Assembly: GCA_012839895.1 (NCBI GenBank)
Contig: DUML01000062.1
Coordinates: forward strand, 1 to 50,775
Source: Peptococcaceae bacterium
GTDB lineage: Bacteria; Bacillota; Desulfitobacteriia; Desulfitobacteriales; Syntrophobotulaceae
Reading direction: 5' to 3'
Length of the DNA: 50,775 nucleotides
The translations under genes and the position numbers were made by a program. The notes below the pieces were generated by a model. The model saw only the letters and a list, made by a program, of their open reading frames with translations, made no database searches and had not been told where the DNA came from. Positions 4,339 to 22,724 of the stretch are shown here, piece by piece. How positions within the stretch are numbered: position 1 is the stretch's first letter; every line of letters starts with the position of its first letter.

Positions 4339-6579
4339 CTAGTCTTCGGCTTTGTAAACTTTGCAGATCATTTGTTTTAACGGAGCACCAAAACCAAGCT
4401 TGCCAATGTGTTTATGCGGCACCATAGTGTTGATATTGGATTCCCATACTCCAAATAAGCTTGGCTCTTCTCCGTCTTTCTCCGGATACCACCAGCCATG
4501 TGTAGCGTGAACGACTTTCGGGTGAATAGTTGGAGTTAGATGCGCTCTTTCTTTAGCCTTGCCAAACATATTTTCCATGTATACCCAATCGCCTTCTTTG
4601 ATACCGAGTTGTGCAGCAGTTTCAGGATGTATTTCCATAATAGGATCAGGTGTAATTTCTCTTAAAGTGGAAATCTGTCTATGCTCGGAATGGAAAGAAG
4701 TAAAGGTACGGGCACCTGTAGTCAGGATAAACGGATATTCCTTAAAGAGTTCCGGAGTGCTGACAGGGCTATAGGGAGGCTCTTTATAGTACGGTAACGG
4801 ATCTTCACCCCAAGCGTCAAAGAGTGTAGAGCAGAGTTCTACTTTTCCTGTCACGGTGTTGAATCCAGGCTCTCCGTCAAAGCGTAGCAGACCTTTTTCA
4901 TATTTCTTATAAGTGTACTCAGGCTGATATACTCCTCTTTCTCTTAATTCGTTAAAGTCAAATCCCCACTCCGGTTTAAGTTGATCGCTAAAGAATTCTT
5001 CAGCCGTATTCCAAGGCCAATTTTCAGGATTGAGCCGTTTGCCAAGTTCAATGCAAACTTCAATATCAGATTTACATTCACCAACTTCCAGCGCTTTATT
5101 AATTGCACCGGCAAAGATTGCGTTGCGGCCAAAGTGAGTGAGGACAATACCGTCATGCTCAGCAAAGGTGGAAACCGGCAGGAAGATATCTGCAAAAGCC
5201 ATTGCTGTCGGAGTCATGAACAAATCCTGAACTACTACGAATTCTAAGTTCTGCAAAGCTTTATACCATCTTTGCGGTGCGGCGGTGTTGGTAGGTGTGA
5301 TTGGCTGAGAACTATTAAACCAACCCATGCGGAGTTTATAAGGTTTACCGGTTTCTAAAGTATCTAAAGTCTCATCCGGGTGAGTCGTTGCCATAGCCGT
5401 ACTTAAAGCAGGCCATTGTTCAGCGCCAATTCTCTTCAGCCAAAGTTCATCCGACAATTGGCTACGGGTTTCCATACGCCACTTACCAAGTAACGCAGCC
5501 GGCGGACCTAAGGTAATGCCTCCAGGCACATCAAGGTTTCCGGTAATTGCACCGATTGCAAGTATGCTGTGACCGAGCTGGACACCGTTCGGGTTGGTGT
5601 CAACGGCCAGACCCCATTGAATGGCTGTAGGTTTATTTGTAGCAATAAGCCGAGCAGCTTCAATAATTTTTTCTTTGGGTACCCAGGTAATACTAGCTAC
5701 TTTCTCGGGCGGATATTCTTGAACGCGTTTTTTGAATTCTTCGAAACCATAGCACCATTTTTCGACGAATTCATGATCATACAGATCTTCATTAATAATG
5801 ACATTAAGGAGGCCAAGAGCCAAAGCAGTGTCTGTACCGGGTCTTAGTTGCAGAGTCATGTTGCCTTCTCTGGTGCTTAACCAGGTAATTCTGGGATCGA
5901 CGTGTATAAATCTGGTACCTCTCTTATACAAATCGATTAAAGAGTGCCCAAAGAAACCGTCCGGGTTGGACATTAGCGGCATTTTACCCCAAAGTACAAC
6001 ATATTTAGGAGGTGTATAATTAGGGTTATCATAACGATCCGGGAAATAACCTGCAAAGTCGATTTCCGGATAACCTGCTCCCAAGATATAGTCAGTAATG
6101 GAACAGCGAGGTCCATAGCAAGACCAACCGCTAAGTGAATAACAAACGTTAGGAGTTCCTAGGGATGAGAAACCAAGGGGATAATAATACAGGCAGGCTT
6201 GACGGCCTGTTCCGCCAAAGACAATAATTGACTCGGCACCATAGTTTTCTTTATAATATTTCACTTTTTCCACAATGATGTCTAAGGCTTCATCCCAAGA
6301 AATCCTTTGCCATTTATTTTCCCCTCTTTTGCCAACGCGCTTCATGGGATAGATAATTCTTTGGGGATGATGCACATACTCCGGCAAGCACAAACATCTT
6401 GGGCATAACCTTCCTTGAGTGATAGGATGCTCTTCATCTCCCTCAACTTTTACCAACCTGCCGTTTTTAATGTATAATTTCATACCGCAGCCGACAGGGT
6501 GGTCTCCAGGGGGCGACCAGCCACAGGTTCTCACAACTAGAGTCCCATCATCAAGTTGTTTTTTCCATTCTCTTTCCAT
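4339..6579 (-). CDS. Molybdopterin oxidoreductase (DMSO-reductase superfamily), substrate unknown
   Basis: A 746-residue catalytic subunit with the full fold: N-terminal Fe-S domain, bis-MGD-binding body, and C-terminal dinucleotide-binding domain with EIHPETAAQLGI. The likely Mo ligand is Cys154 in WSCYGPR. The N-terminal cluster motif is unusual: Cys19, then His27 and Cys31, then Cys59 with Cys62, instead of the common C-x2-C-x3-C-x27-C. There is no Tat signal, so it is cytoplasmic. The middle (NEDLYDHEFVEKWCYGFEE) resembles acetylene hydratase and the transhydroxylase/thiosulfate-reductase branches. The aromatic-acid carrier and aldehyde dehydrogenase nearby favour a hydroxyaromatic or related substrate, but this is inference. 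AAGGAGAGG precedes the ATG, and a sigma-54 promoter lies about 190 bases upstream. Confidence 0.88.
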   Translation of the reverse strand: MEREWKKQLDDGTLVVRTCGWSPPGDHPVGCGMKLYIKNGRLVKVEGDEEHPITQGRLCPRCLCLPEYVHHPQRIIYPMKRVGKRGENKWQRISWDEALDIIVEKVKYYKENYGAESIIVFGGTGRQACLYYYPLGFSSLGTPNVCYSLSGWSCYGPRCSITDYILGAGYPEIDFAGYFPDRYDNPNYTPPKYVVLWGKMPLMSNPDGFFGHSLIDLYKRGTRFIHVDPRITWLSTREGNMTLQLRPGTDTALALGLLNVIINEDLYDHEFVEKWCYGFEEFKKRVQEYPPEKVASITWVPKEKIIEAARLIATNKPTAIQWGLAVDTNPNGVQLGHSILAIGAITGNLDVPGGITLGPPAALLGKWRMETRSQLSDELWLKRIGAEQWPALSTAMATTHPDETLDTLETGKPYKLRMGWFNSSQPITPTNTAAPQRWYKALQNLEFVVVQDLFMTPTAMAFADIFLPVSTFAEHDGIVLTHFGRNAIFAGAINKALEVGECKSDIEVCIELGKRLNPENWPWNTAEEFFSDQLKPEWGFDFNELRERGVYQPEYTYKKYEKGLLRFDGEPGFNTVTGKVELCSTLFDAWGEDPLPYYKEPPYSPVSTPELFKEYPFILTTGARTFTSFHSEHRQISTLREITPDPIMEIHPETAAQLGIKEGDWVYMENMFGKAKERAHLTPTIHPKVVHATHGWWYPEKDGEEPSLFGVWESNINTMVPHKHIGKLGFGAPLKQMICKVYKAED

Positions 6580-16425: not shown

Positions 16426-17223
16426 CTAAAGATACTTTTTAATCACGATCGCCATCCGGCCCTTTTTGGTCTGGTGGCTTATTTCTTCCAGCTTAATTTT
16501 ACCCTTACCCTTTAAAGAGATAACATCCCCCGCTTGGACAAGTTTATCGCTTTTCATGCATTCTAAATAATTAAGCCTGACCCTGCCTGCCGCCAGGGCC
16601 TCCCCGGCTTTGCTGCGGCTTAAAGCAAAGCCGGCGGATATTATATTATCCAAGCGCAAGGAAGCCACGGTATCCTTAATTAAAACATATTTTTCTTCCG
16701 GAACCCTTAAGTCCGCCAAGGGAACAGCGGTTGTTTTTACTTTCACCCGTCCTACCGCTTCCCAATTAGCCAATAAGTAAGTTTTAATTTCTTCCAGGAC
16801 TACCAGGTCACAGCTGCCTTGGCCAACAAGAATATCGCCGACAGTTTCCCTGGTTTGACCTAAACCCATAAGGCTCCCTAAAAAATCCCGGTGGGAAAGG
16901 GTACACTCCGCAGGGTACTCCACCCGGACAGCTGCCAAAGGCAAGATATCATTGGCATTGATCAGCTCCGGTTCAAGGTAAGTAGGCAGGAAATACAGGA
17001 TAACCCTCTGGGCTCCTTCATAACCGCCGGCAAAGAAATGCCGTGAACTTTTTAGGCTTTTTAGCATACAAGACGCTAAGTGCTGCTGCTGTTCATTTAG
17101 AAATTTAGTATAAGTAAGTATATCCTTTTCTTCCGACTCTGTAAGCTTATCCAGCACCCTGGCCAAGACAAGCTTTCCTTCCTCGTCCGGGGCAAACTTT
17201 TTAATTACTTCCTGTTTATTCAT
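16426..17223 (-). CDS. ylmH: YlmH-type S4-domain RNA-binding protein
   Basis: A 265-residue protein with the YlmH layout. An N-terminal region has FFAGGYEGAQRVILYFLP and a middle segment HRDFLGSLMGLGQTRETVGDI. A C-terminal S4 RNA-binding domain covers about 185-250 (LRLDNIISAGFALSRSKAGEAL, then AGDVISLKGKG). YlmH binds ribosomal and tRNA-like RNA and has been tied to ribosome-associated quality control. It usually sits in the sepF-ylmG-ylmH-divIVA cluster; here it is alone behind the selenium operon, separated by a strong terminator. Length and motifs are typical. Confidence 0.88.
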   Translation of the reverse strand: MNKQEVIKKFAPDEEGKLVLARVLDKLTESEEKDILTYTKFLNEQQQHLASCMLKSLKSSRHFFAGGYEGAQRVILYFLPTYLEPELINANDILPLAAVRVEYPAECTLSHRDFLGSLMGLGQTRETVGDILVGQGSCDLVVLEEIKTYLLANWEAVGRVKVKTTAVPLADLRVPEEKYVLIKDTVASLRLDNIISAGFALSRSKAGEALAAGRVRLNYLECMKSDKLVQAGDVISLKGKGKIKLEEISHQTKKGRMAIVIKKYL

Positions 17224-17379: not shown

Positions 17380-18429
17380 CTATTTAACTTCCACCAAATA
17401 TGATTTTTGTTCTATAACCCTGCCTACCAAAGCATAAGGAGTCTTATTTGTTTGCGCCAATTCTTCCAACAGCCGGTCTGCTTTGTTCTCCGGTAAAGCG
17501 ATTAGAAGCCCTCCCGAAGTCTGAGGGTCACAAAGGATATCCTGGATTTCCAGAGGAATATCCTGAGACCATTTAACCTTACCCTCCAGATAGTCTCTAT
17601 TGCGGTAAGCTCCCCCCGGAACCATACCCATTTTAGCCAATTCCAGGCTCTCATCCATGACAGGCAGCTTGTCAGACCAAATTTCCAGAGTAACACTGCT
17701 GGCGGCAGCCATTTCTGAAGCATGGCCTAAGAAGCCGAAACCGGTAATATCAGTACAGCCGGACACTCCTACTTTCAGCATCGCTTGCCCGGCATCTTTA
17801 TTCAGATAGGACATAACCTGCACACATCTCCGGTACGCCTCCTCACTGACCAGGCCTCCCTTAAAAGCGGTATTTATTATCCCGCTACCTAGAGGTTTGG
17901 TCAAAACCAAGCAATCCCCGGGTTTGGCCCCGCTATTGGCAATTACTTTTTCCGGGTGAACAAGACCTAAAACCGATAAGCCATACTTTGGTTCCTTATC
18001 TGCAATGGTATGACCGCCGACAATTATAGCTCCGGCCTCTTGCACCTTTTCCGCCCCTCCTCTAATTATTTGCCTTAGGATTTCAGGGGAGAGGCAATCC
18101 GGAAAGCACGCAATATTTAAGGCTGCCAAGGGGCTGCCACCCATGGCATAAACATCGCTCAAGGCATTAGCGGCGGCAATTTGGCCAAAAGTAAAGGGAT
18201 CATCAGTTACAGGAGTAAAAAAGTCCAGAGTCAAAATAACAGCTTGGCTGTCGTTAAGCTTATAAACCGCTGCATCATCACAGGTGTCTAAACCTACCAA
18301 CAAATTTTCATTATCAACTTTTGGTAAAGAGCACAGGACCTGTGCCAGAGCCAACGGGCTCATTTTAGCCGCTCAACCCGAACTGGAGGTCATTTGAGTC
18401 AATCTCAATTTTTCTTCTTTCTCCTTCAC
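17380..18429 (-). CDS. selD: Selenide, water dikinase SelD, selenocysteine-containing
   Basis: SelD makes selenophosphate from selenide and ATP for Sec-tRNA and selenouridine synthesis. The frame usually called would begin at ATG 18363, but it continues upstream through an in-frame TGA (18373-18375). The upstream part reads LRLTQMTSSSGUAAKMSP, the catalytic loop of SelD with U (Sec19) followed by the essential Lys22. Reading from GTG 18429, with AAGGGGGG six bases upstream, gives 349 residues, the normal size. Later motifs agree: LDFFTPVTDDP, GGHTIADKEPKYG, TDITGFGFLGH and CDPQTSGGLLIA. It is the last gene of the yedE-yedF-DUF3343 operon. The organism must therefore insert Sec at UGA. Confidence 0.93.
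18348..18375 (-). promoter_or_regulatory. Sec UGA codon with candidate bacterial SECIS hairpin in selD
   Basis: The TGA at 18373-18375 is followed, 11 bases later, by GAGCC-CGTT-GGCTC, a five-pair stem with a four-base loop containing G. The loop begins 17 bases after the UGA, within the 16-37 base window described for bacterial SECIS elements read by SelB. The fold is judged by eye. Confidence 0.6.
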
Positions 18430-18533
18430 CTATTACCCCCCTTTTCCAATAGAATTGCCCATTCTCAAGTTTTATCCTCTACTGCTCTGCCATTAAACTC
18501 GTTTCAGATGTAAAGGGCGAAAATTGTAATGTT

Positions 18534-18783: not shown

Positions 18784-18996
18784 CTACCTGCTTAAAGTTA
18801 TTTTGAAATCAGAACCGTCCAACTCCGTGCTGACCTGATACCCAAAATTCTTGCCAAACCTAGTAATATTGTCGCGAGATACAGCATTATCCACCAAAAC
18901 GCAGATTCCATTCGGGGACTGTTCCAATGCTTTTTTTGTCATAAGCACCGGTTCGGGGCAAGATCTCCCCCTGGCATCAATTTGAGGGTAAATCAA
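18784..18996 (-). CDS. yedF: YedF/TusA-family sulfurtransferase-like protein
   Basis: A 70-residue SirA/TusA/YedF domain. The signature CPEPV holds the catalytic Cys (GRSCPEPVLMTKKAL), and the second half has the usual DNAVSRDNITRFGKN segment. TusA-type proteins pass persulfide sulfur; in this operon setting the cargo may be selenium handed from the desulfurase or YedE to SelD. The start lies inside the end of yedE (20-base overlap), so translation is coupled. In some clostridia YedF and a second domain are one longer protein; here only the N-terminal TusA-like part is present, followed by DUF3343. Confidence 0.85.
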   Translation of the reverse strand: MIYPQIDARGRSCPEPVLMTKKALEQSPNGICVLVDNAVSRDNITRFGKNFGYQVSTELDGSDFKITLSR

Positions 18997-20071
18997 TTTT
19001 GACTCCTCCTTTAATAGTAACCTCAGTACTTTTATCCCGATTGAAATAAGCTATTGCCAAAATAACAATAAAGCCAAGCGCCACGGCAATCTTGCCGTTT
19101 AAAGTCGGTCCTTGAGCCGACGAGGCCAAACCAAAATTATGAGCGAGAGATGCTCCGGTAGCCATCCCTAAAACAGTCACAGCTGAATCTATATTGCCTT
19201 CTCCGGCAAGAATAAGTTGCCTAAGGGGGCATCCTCCCAAAAGCACGGAAGCCCAACCGGCTAAAGCCATGCCTAAAAAATTCCACAAACCGTCAGTATG
19301 AGCCACAGGTTGCCCGGCAAAACCCAGTTTAAATTGGCCAAAGAGCATGTTGCCCACTAAAGCAGCTGCGAGAATAGCCAAAAAACCGGAAAGCAAATAC
19401 CAATCTTTAAAGAGGATTACGTCTCTAATCCCGCCGACCATACACAACCTGGTGCGCTGAGCCAGCATACCGACGATTAAGCCCGCAGCCAGAGACATAA
19501 CAAATGGGGCGTGAGCAGATCCCGGCCCCTGGGTACTAAAAAACAAAAAAGCTGGAGCGGTAATCGCCAGTATAAGTAAACCAACATTAACAGCCGGGAA
19601 CAAATAACCTTCAAAAGCAGCCAAATTATAGGTCCTTCTTAGGGTAAAGCCCCTGTTTAAGAACTGAATTCCAACAATTATTCCTGCCGCAAACCCCAAG
19701 AAGCCAAAAATAGCATTCAGGTCTCCGCCGGCCAGTCTAAGAACCATTCTTAAAGGGCACCCTAAAAACATCAAAGCACCAATAATGACTATCATACCCA
19801 TAATAAAACGGCTGAAGGGCGCCGAACCGCCTCTGGCCTTATACTCCCTCTTACCCAGAGCCATGAAAAAAGCGCCAAGCACAATACCCATAATCTCAGG
19901 CCGGATATACTGCACTACTTCCGCCCGCTGGAAGCCCAAGCCGCCGACGGTATCCCGAATAAAACAAGCGACACAAATCCCCATATTGACGGGATTGCCA
20001 AAACGGACAAGAATCACGGCAATAACTCCAATTAAAAGGCCTGCTCCGATAATACCTTTTTTACCTTGCAA
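18977..20071 (-). CDS. yedE: YedE-family putative selenium transporter
   Basis: A 364-residue membrane protein of the YeeE/YedE fold with about ten helices. Each half carries the Cys-containing pore motif: LGCPLRMVLRLAGGDLNA and GGCPLRQLILAGEGN. There is also a CVACFIRD element near the N-terminus. The family is proposed to import selenium or thiosulfate-like species; linkage to yedF, DUF3343 and selD supports selenium. The start is TTG at 20071, placed behind GGAGGAGAGGAG. It is the first gene of the selenium operon and is divergent from the desulfurase-like gene. Confidence 0.88.
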   Translation of the reverse strand: MQGKKGIIGAGLLIGVIAVILVRFGNPVNMGICVACFIRDTVGGLGFQRAEVVQYIRPEIMGIVLGAFFMALGKREYKARGGSAPFSRFIMGMIVIIGALMFLGCPLRMVLRLAGGDLNAIFGFLGFAAGIIVGIQFLNRGFTLRRTYNLAAFEGYLFPAVNVGLLILAITAPAFLFFSTQGPGSAHAPFVMSLAAGLIVGMLAQRTRLCMVGGIRDVILFKDWYLLSGFLAILAAALVGNMLFGQFKLGFAGQPVAHTDGLWNFLGMALAGWASVLLGGCPLRQLILAGEGNIDSAVTVLGMATGASLAHNFGLASSAQGPTLNGKIAVALGFIVILAIAYFNRDKSTEVTIKGGVKIDLPSN

Positions 20072-20375: not shown

Positions 20376-21536
20376 ATGCCCAGTATTTATTTAGACCAAG
20401 CAGCAACTTCTTTCCCCAAAGCTCCGGGTGTAGGAGACGCAATGAAAAATTATCTGGAAAATGTAGGCGTTAACGTTAACAGAGGCGTTTACGGCAGTGC
20501 CTTAGAGGCCGGAGAGGTAATTCTGGAGACAAGGGAAGCCCTTGGCCGTCTTTTCCATTTCGATCCGCCGGAAAACGTTATTTTTACTTTAAACATCACC
20601 CAGGCCCTCAATATGCTTTTAAAAGGGCTTTTAAAACCCGGCGACCACTGTCTTATTTCCTCTCTCGAACATAATGCCGTGACCAGACCCTTATGCCAAT
20701 TGGCCTCTCAAGGAGTAAGCTTTTCCAGAGTCCAAGCTGACAAGGAAGGTTTTCTCGATCCCCTTGATATTCAGCATTCCCTTCAGGAGAATACCAAAGT
20801 TGTAGTCTTAACTCATGCTTCCAATGTCTGCGGCACAATTCTCCCTTTAGCCGAAGTTGGCCAAATATGCCGGGAAAAAGGACTGATTTTTATAGTGGAC
20901 AGCGCTCAAACCGCCGGCTCCCTGGCCATAGACTTTGAGGCCTTAAATATAGACGCCTTGGCCTTTACGGGACATAAAGGGCTGCTCGGTCCTCAGGGAA
21001 TAGGCGGGTTTTTAATCAGCCCCAAGCTTGTACCGGACATGGAGCCCCTAATTACCGGCGGCACCGGCAGCCTTTCCGACCGGGAAGATGTTCCACCCTT
21101 TTTGCCGGATAAGTATGAAGCAGGCACGCCCAATATCCCGGGAATTTTTGGTTTGCACACCGCCCTGAAGTACTTAGAAAAAGAAGGAATCAACAATTTG
21201 CACAGCCAAGCCATGGAGCTAACAGGCTTATTCCTGGAAGAGGTTCAAAACATCAAAGGCATCCAATTGGTCGGCCCTAAGAGCCTAGAAAACAGAACAG
21301 CCGTTGTATCCTTAGATTTTCCGGGACGCGACAATGGAGAGATTGCTTATAAACTGGAAAAATATTACGGGATTATGACCCGCTCCGGCCTCCATTGCGC
21401 CCCTTCCGCCCACCAAACCCTGGGCACTTTTCCCCATGGCACTGTTCGTTTCAGTTTTAACCATTTCAATACCAGGCAGGAAATCAAATATACTTTGGAT
21501 GCTCTTCACAAAATAGTCACACAAGACCTGTCCTAA
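20376..21536 (+). CDS. Cysteine desulfurase-like class V aminotransferase of selenium metabolism
   Basis: A 386-residue PLP enzyme that opens with the class V motif IYLDQAATSFPKAP. PLP Lys lies in FTGHKGLLGPQG. The active-site Cys loop is GLHCAPSAH, followed by GTVRFSFNHFNT. These mark the cysteine desulfurase family (EF2568-like branch), which releases sulfur or selenium from cysteine or selenocysteine as enzyme-bound persulfide. Divergent transcription from the yedE-yedF-DUF3343-selD operon suggests it feeds SelD. GAGAGGAG precedes the ATG. Size is normal, and both Cys and Lys are present, so it should be active. Confidence 0.87.
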   Translation: MPSIYLDQAATSFPKAPGVGDAMKNYLENVGVNVNRGVYGSALEAGEVILETREALGRLFHFDPPENVIFTLNITQALNMLLKGLLKPGDHCLISSLEHNAVTRPLCQLASQGVSFSRVQADKEGFLDPLDIQHSLQENTKVVVLTHASNVCGTILPLAEVGQICREKGLIFIVDSAQTAGSLAIDFEALNIDALAFTGHKGLLGPQGIGGFLISPKLVPDMEPLITGGTGSLSDREDVPPFLPDKYEAGTPNIPGIFGLHTALKYLEKEGINNLHSQAMELTGLFLEEVQNIKGIQLVGPKSLENRTAVVSLDFPGRDNGEIAYKLEKYYGIMTRSGLHCAPSAHQTLGTFPHGTVRFSFNHFNTRQEIKYTLDALHKIVTQDLS

Positions 21537-21658: not shown

Positions 21659-22663
21659 TTAGATCCCATCGGAACTTGTGTGATAGTACTCCAACAGATA
21701 GTCCCGGAAGGCGGCGACACTTGGGGCTAAAGGCTGATTGCGGTGCGTAACCAGATAAAAGAAACGGTTTAAATCCAGTCCTTCAATGGTGAAAGCCTTG
21801 AGTAACCCCCATTCCAAAAAATCGACCACACTCAAGGAGGAAACCACTGCGACCCCCAAACCTTCCCGCACTGCATATTTGATAGCTTCTGTACTGTTCA
21901 TCTCAGCAACAATATTTAAGGTGTTATCTGGATCAATCCCTTTCTTTTTCAAGGCACTTTCGAACTCCTGGCGGGTTCCTGAGCCCTGCTCCCTAAGAAT
22001 AAAGGGCTGCTCCAGAACTTCTTCCAAGGAAATAACCGGGTATTTCCGCCTTGCTTTGCTTTGCTTTCCAATACATTGGAGGTCTTGCCAATCAACCCGC
22101 ACAGGCTGGGTCCCGGACCCCTCCAGGGAATCATAGGCAACATCGTTCTCAGCGGCGGTAATTAATAGGAGCTCGTCCCTACAAAGCACCTCATAATGCA
22201 GTTTTTCCCCTTCCAGACGAGTACCAACTATACCGATCTGGAACTTTTTCTCTTCCATCTCGCGGATTACTTCTTTCGTGTCTCCTTGGCGGATCATGAC
22301 CTGAATATCCGGATATTTAGTTCGAAAACCTTTGAGCGGCCGGGGAAGTAAATACTGGCCGGGTATAGTGGAAGTAGCAATCTCTAACCTGCCGGCAATT
22401 TGCCGGCCATACTGCTGCAGGGAATTAATAGCGCTTTCTCTCGTTTCCAGCAAATTAACCGCGTACTGGTAAAAAGCATCTCCAGCACCCGTAGCAAGCA
22501 CTTCGCGGCTGGAGCGATCAAAGAGTTTTACTCCCAGTTCTTCTTCCAAATCACTTATATGGCTGCTGACGGTAGGCTGGGACAAATAGAGTACCTTTGC
22601 CGCCCTGGAAAAACTGCGCAGGCGATAAACAGAGACAAAGGCTTCAATTTGCCTAAAATCCAT
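21659..22663 (-). CDS. LysR-type regulator, selenium-metabolism-associated type
   Basis: A LysR-family regulator of about 334 residues. The winged helix-turn-helix is at the N-terminus (MDFRQIEAFVSVYRLRSFSRAA, then LSQPTVSSHISDLEEELG). The periplasmic-binding-like effector domain follows, with GKQSKARRKYPVI and REGLGVAVVSS. The frame extends eight codons further up, but GAGAGGTGG stands four bases before ATG 22663. It is convergent with the desulfurase-like gene, and relatives next to yedE/selD clusters are annotated as selenium-metabolism LysR regulators. It may control the divergent 20.1-20.4 kb promoters. The effector is unknown. Confidence 0.85.
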   Translation of the reverse strand: MDFRQIEAFVSVYRLRSFSRAAKVLYLSQPTVSSHISDLEEELGVKLFDRSSREVLATGAGDAFYQYAVNLLETRESAINSLQQYGRQIAGRLEIATSTIPGQYLLPRPLKGFRTKYPDIQVMIRQGDTKEVIREMEEKKFQIGIVGTRLEGEKLHYEVLCRDELLLITAAENDVAYDSLEGSGTQPVRVDWQDLQCIGKQSKARRKYPVISLEEVLEQPFILREQGSGTRQEFESALKKKGIDPDNTLNIVAEMNSTEAIKYAVREGLGVAVVSSLSVVDFLEWGLLKAFTIEGLDLNRFFYLVTHRNQPLAPSVAAFRDYLLEYYHTSSDGI

Positions 22664-22724
22664 ATGTCCACCTCTCTTTATTACCATTATAAATGTTTAT
22701 TTTAATAAATATTAATTTCATAAA

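Follow-up and report, generated by a model that had tools for sequence, protein, structure and literature searches.

SelA depends on selenophosphate as its selenium donor when making selenocysteine (Sec) tRNA, and SelB with Sec-tRNA reads the bacterial selenocysteine insertion sequence (bSECIS) and inserts Sec. Selenophosphate synthetases (SelD) that themselves contain Sec, those with a GUAAK loop included, are well known. According to PMC4561486, Sec occurs in 19% of the SelDs of reference prokaryotes, always at the same position and accompanied by SECIS structures. The bSECIS model, as given in PMC13188914, consists of a stem of 4-16 bp with a loop of 3-9 nt, located 16-37 nt after the UGA and carrying a G in the first two loop positions. 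Here we analyze selD on a contig of a Peptococcaceae bacterium (GCA_012839895.1, DUML01000062.1; the entire stretch of 50,775 nt is referred to as the window) and compare its recoding signal with these systems. The gene is complete and that of an ordinary Sec-SelD, whereas its mRNA carries two hairpins behind the UGA (H1 and H2, Table 1) that are conserved in many related bacteria and seem to represent a modest new variant of the signal.

The selD Gene and Its Start Codon

The frame running from 18429 to 17380 on the reverse strand contains a sole internal stop, TGA 18375-18373, and its product, translated with this TGA as Sec, begins MKEKEEKLRLTQMTSSSGUAAKMSP. It matches TIGR00476 with 392.8 bits (cut-off 125) from residue 9 onward and across the TGA, and aligns to E. 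coli SelD (3u0o, 256 bits), U19 falling on Cys17 and K22 on Lys20. The earlier note on this DNA had placed the TGA within SSSGUAAK, the catalytic loop of SelD, and had proposed an alignment with Sec-containing SelD proteins; both the alignment and the relatives bear it out. Among 115 SelD frames collected from one phylum (a contig scan, one of the sources, contributed only 3), 106 have a readable loop, of which 101 carry TGA at the same codon and 5 carry Cys. This recurrence rules out a plain stop or a sequencing error at this position. The idea of an unusual loop, in turn, was discarded, since GUAAK is found in 43 of the 106, next to GUGCK (37), GUASK (11), GUACK (6) and GUGAK (4). As far as can be told from sequence, the gene call is thus right but ordinary, and nothing in the protein sets this SelD apart: the reading of the earlier note holds as a gene call, yet the case is not an unusual one, Sec-SelD being a well-known selenoprotein. 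Across the window no other in-frame TGA resembled a gene interruption, as judged by eye.

Because TAA TAG lies in frame directly 5' of GTG 18429, the frame cannot start further upstream. Four candidate starts keep the Sec codon, with predicted anti-Shine-Dalgarno duplexes of -12.4 (GTG 18429), -9.5 (TTG 18408, at a longer spacing), -6.2 (TTG 18402) and -4.1 kcal/mol (ATG 18393). N-terminal to the catalytic loop, relatives share a basic residue and LT, and GTG 18429 is the start that retains both in full, as part of LRLTQ. The start put forward earlier, GTG 18429 behind AAGGGGGG, is upheld by this duplex, by the retained LRLTQ and by the stops just upstream; yet ATG 18393 too would keep Sec and Lys, though it drops LRLTQ and has a far weaker ribosome-site match.

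A table-11 open reading frame caller instead starts selD at ATG 18363 and yields 327 residues, losing Sec19 and Lys22, just as the earlier note had warned. If this call were correct, the TGA would lie beyond the gene as a plain stop, or ribosomes terminating at the UGA would re-initiate 12 nt downstream. The ATG does lie close behind the stop and is what a mechanical caller picks, but such a protein would lack both the catalytic residue and Lys22, the ribosome-site match is weak (-4.8 kcal/mol), and the codons upstream are conserved as the SelD N-terminus. Moreover, Met directly follows the catalytic Lys in only 6 of the 106 relatives, so that this is no conserved start. The genome also holds the Sec machinery, whose absence had been named as an objection to a selenoprotein: selA (574 bits), selB (379 bits in total, 351 of them from the best piece) and a tRNA-Sec (68.8 bits, anticodon UCA according to ARAGORN) are all present in this assembly (G000, 98.7% complete), on other contigs than selD, and the window's own SelD, with 1 TGA, is the one SelD above cut-off. 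A second tRNA-Sec candidate (contig C9, 51.6 bits) was rejected, as ARAGORN calls it a tRNA-Ser. We regard a start at ATG 18363 as extremely improbable.

It is nearly certain in our judgment that selD encodes a Sec-containing selenophosphate synthetase, with translation beginning at GTG 18429 and SelB, guided by the downstream mRNA, directing Sec19 to UGA 18375. At this codon SelB, GTP and Sec-tRNA would put in Sec instead of allowing termination, and Sec19 would form with Lys22 the catalytic loop that makes selenophosphate; we infer both the insertion and the catalysis from the known pathway. Since selenophosphate feeds the synthesis of Sec-tRNA by SelA, the synthesis of SelD would depend on its own product.

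Table 1. Features of the selD region in the window (reverse strand, -; forward strand, +).
Feature	Position	Strand	Remarks
selD, selenocysteine-containing selenide, water dikinase	17380..18429	-	349 codons before stop; match to TIGR00476 and E. coli SelD 3u0o
Sec codon TGA (Sec19)	18373..18375	-	on Cys17 of E. coli SelD; TGA in 101/106 relatives
Start codon GTG	18427..18429	-	first codon behind TAA TAG; strongest anti-Shine-Dalgarno duplex; retains conserved LRLTQ
Shine-Dalgarno-like AAGGGGGG	18436..18443	-	6 nt 5' of GTG; duplex -12.4 kcal/mol
Hairpin H1, GAGCC[CGUU]GGCUC	18348..18361	-	+15..+28 from U of UGA; proximal part of bacterial SECIS
Hairpin H2, GGCACAG[GUC]CUGUGCU	18330..18346	-	+30..+46 from U of UGA; distal hairpin
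Putative Se/S carrier (PF11823, DUF3343-type), 82 aa	18534..18782	-	family tied to selenium in PMC5322559
TusA/SirA-like protein, 70 aa	18784..18996	-	matches N-terminal part of YedF only
YedE family putative selenium transporter	18977..20071	-	TIGR04112, 512 bits
Cysteine desulfurase family protein (EF2568 type), near selenocysteine lyase SclA	20376..21536	+	TIGR01977, 446 bits, over cut-off
Selenium metabolism-associated LysR regulator	21659..22687	-	NF040786, 318 bits, over cut-off

Two Conserved Hairpins Behind the UGA

The RNA downstream of the UGA, where the more interesting feature lies, had not entered the considerations of the earlier note. Both hairpins agree with the bSECIS rules: H1 has 5 bp and a 4-nt loop, CGUU, with G in second position and 16 nt from the UGA, and H2 has 7 bp including one GU and a 3-nt loop, GUC, 33 nt from the UGA. 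Under an energy rule of -7.5 kcal/mol or lower, H1 together with H2 reaches -16.2 and the stretch +13..+42, which is mostly H1, -8.2 kcal/mol. With its innermost pair open, H2 presents the apex GGUCC. A search against Rfam returned no family matching the element behind the UGA.

To tell constraint on the RNA from constraint on the protein, we built a null by redrawing every gene from the synonymous codons that it uses itself. The best hairpin score of the Sec-SelDs amounts to 14.6, versus 7.4 for the null (standard deviation 0.5, top of 300 nulls 9.1); the 5 Cys-SelDs score from 0 to 10. We refer to Sec-SelDs without H2 as class I and to those with it as class II, the latter being picked by H2 pairing, so that their H2 peak arises partly by construction. 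In a scan from +10 to +90, 36 class I SelDs peak only at stem end +19/20, and 55 class II SelDs only at +19/20 (z 22-26) and +35/36 (z 22-29), z-values that overstate independence as the sequences are kin. For 22 FdhA genes of relatives the only peak is at +21/22.

Genes picked by protein motif alone show the H2 pairing as well. In 45 AQVL[RC] genes, 5.58 of 6 pairs are Watson-Crick, versus 3.56 for the null (top of 400: 3.98), and 55 of the 62 genes with Gln-Val-Leu (QVL), this selD among them, have H2 with at least 5 of 6 pairs. The Gln and Leu codons in these 62 genes occur as CAA-TTG (35), CAG-CTG (19) or otherwise (8), and the outer codons of H2 pair through residue swaps: GCG-CGC (Ala-Arg), GCA-TGC (Ala-Cys), GCC-GGC (Ala-Gly), TCG-CGA (Ser-Arg), ACG-CGT (Thr-Arg), CTG-CAG (Leu-Gln) and GCT-AGC (Ala-Ser). 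With one sequence per genus (33 genera), both-sided changes occur at 4 of the 6 pairs of H2, 0 of 500 shuffles attain the covariation score that the structure as a whole receives, and the score of 0.40 falls to at most 0.17 when the H2 partner is shifted by 1-3 columns. RNAalifold recovers H2 unaided. Because genes differ in the length of the H1 loop, a single fixed register pairs H1 in only 65% of cells.

On DNA, a palindrome like GCGCAAGTTTTGCGC would give the same picture, and with the gene of a selenium-linked LysR regulator nearby, H2 might be conceived as a DNA element, for instance a regulator binding site within selD. However, H2 always stands at the same place with respect to the UGA, none of the 5 Cys-SelDs shows it, and its palindromic sequence differs between lineages; H2 also tolerates G-U pairs as expected for coding-strand RNA (GU in 10 of 33 at pair 31/45), in rows that were picked for pairing and thus partly by construction. 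We therefore consider a DNA palindrome highly unlikely. Regarding H2 as an RNA element, we note that a second selD hairpin is not mentioned in the literature text available to us; the SelD SECIS figure SM6.1 of PMC4561486 was not checked, so that the novelty of H2 is uncertain.

Two Classes of selD Signal

The two classes differ in the loop of H1. One of its first two bases is a G in 37 of the 38 genes that have H1 and lack H2, versus 26 of the 55 with H2. The Pro codon under the loop is CCG in 31 of 36 genes without H2 and in 8 of 55 with H2 (Fisher 6e-12, uncorrected for kinship), and in 23 of 27 versus 6 of 21 (p 1e-4) when one entry per family and class is retained. The tree requires 13 class changes, at least 3 of them on supported branches, where an independent-pair test had too few pairs. 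Three genomes carry two Sec-SelD genes, one per class: G025 (L047, L123), G067 (L026, L120) and G026 (L065, L128). Leaving aside the selB copy number there, this coexistence speaks against a class difference due to different SelBs.

These patterns suggest a recoding signal in two parts, H1 next to the UGA and H2 behind it, with the H2 apex GGUCC resembling the GGUCU of formate dehydrogenase signals. In class II, SelB would read H2, and H1 would fold the intervening RNA and so bring H2 near the ribosome, a division of roles that we infer from sequence comparison. In this proposal many Bacillota selD mRNAs would carry a two-hairpin element with the SelB-recognized apex on H2 (at about +37) and H1 as a spacer placing H2 at the ribosome entrance; classes would have switched several times and would coexist in one genome, and the RNA would constrain the protein (Gln-Val-Leu). 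To us the balance of evidence for this proposal as a whole could tip either way.

Several observations weigh against it. The CGUU loop of H1 in this selD itself fits the bSECIS model, so that H1 may suffice here and H2 could be dispensed with. Folded as a single sequence, the first 51 nt do not stand out (z only -1.1, an uninformative value), and the minimum-energy fold of this stretch pairs the H1 region otherwise. H1 alone might be the SECIS in all Sec-SelDs, H2 being an accessory that acts on stability or ribosome pausing and makes no contact with SelB. H1 is indeed present in both classes, equally far above the null (14.3 and 14.6 versus about 6.4), and the CGUU loop, 16 nt from the UGA with G second, is what the published model describes; yet the loop exchange persists with one entry per family and class, and we tentatively rate this explanation as a serious but lesser possibility.

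Other Probable Selenoproteins of the Genome

Further selenoproteins were sought family by family only. Two HesB-like genes of the TIGR01911 family, each below its cut-off, have an in-frame TGA and are likely further selenoprotein genes judging from their sequences: L174 (G000:C94:13916-14176), with GVGUGGPSFGLALDE, and L175 (G000:C131:31712-31960), with GYGUGGPKFRLALDE. Downstream of the TGA, each is predicted to form two neighboring hairpins. Across 13 HesB-like TGA genes from this genome and from its relatives, the synonymous null is clearly exceeded by the distal hairpin (stem end +28) and only weakly by the proximal one. No Sec-type formate dehydrogenase was found in the genome, none of the hits having a TGA, and in the window a related molybdopterin oxidoreductase (4339-6579) shows no in-frame TGA in its matched part. 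FlpD/MvhD is present, equally with no TGA in the matched part. GrdA and GrdB gave no match, nor did they in the control genomes, so that their absence is unproven.

Selenium Gene Neighborhood

The genes for YedE, the TusA/SirA-like protein, the Se/S carrier and SelD form a row on one strand, followed by those for the EF2568-type desulfurase and the selenium-linked LysR regulator. The YedF-like protein at 18784-18996 covers the first 61 of the 194 positions of the YedF model and misses the C-terminal DsrE-like part. The SclA model matches the desulfurase with 415 bits, below the SclA cut-off. Directly behind selD and in the same orientation lies a gene for a YlmH-like S4-domain RNA-binding protein (16426-17223). 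PMC5322559 links YedE, SirA-like/YedF, DUF3343 and LysR_Se genes to selenium use; as these are the same gene types, the selD cluster is of a known kind.

Implications and Comparison With Known Systems

For annotation, a standard caller silently shortens this SelD by 22 residues, the catalytic Sec and Lys among them, and the same risk exists for most relatives. For recoding, bacterial SECIS elements often scarcely resemble each other (PMC13188914); how they are all read by one SelB is an unsettled question. The two selD classes offer a natural pair within one enzyme, with the recognition loop at about +20 in one and apparently at about +37 behind a conserved hairpin in the other, sometimes in the same genome, which makes this question directly testable.

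In its protein, the SelD described here corresponds to the known Sec-SelD/SPS2 (TIGR00476; PMC4561486 and PMC13188914), with which it shares the family, the single Sec position, the catalytic Lys three residues on and a stem-loop behind the UGA; its GUAAK loop is common, as are several other variants. In its surroundings, the gene types of the cluster in PMC5322559 (YedE, SirA-like/YedF, DUF3343, Sec lyase, LysR_Se) adjoin selD here too; unlike in that cluster, the YedF-like protein is short, with the N-terminal TusA part only, and selA, selB and tRNA-Sec lie on other contigs. The fdhA bSECIS of related genomes is one hairpin with the apex GGUCU at about +22 and no H2, whereas selD here has two hairpins, its H2 apex reading GGUCC, and AGUUU-type in relatives. 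Likewise, the bSECIS model in PMC13188914 describes one stem-loop, whereas here two adjoining hairpins are conserved, and in many relatives the loop-G rule holds at the distal one only.
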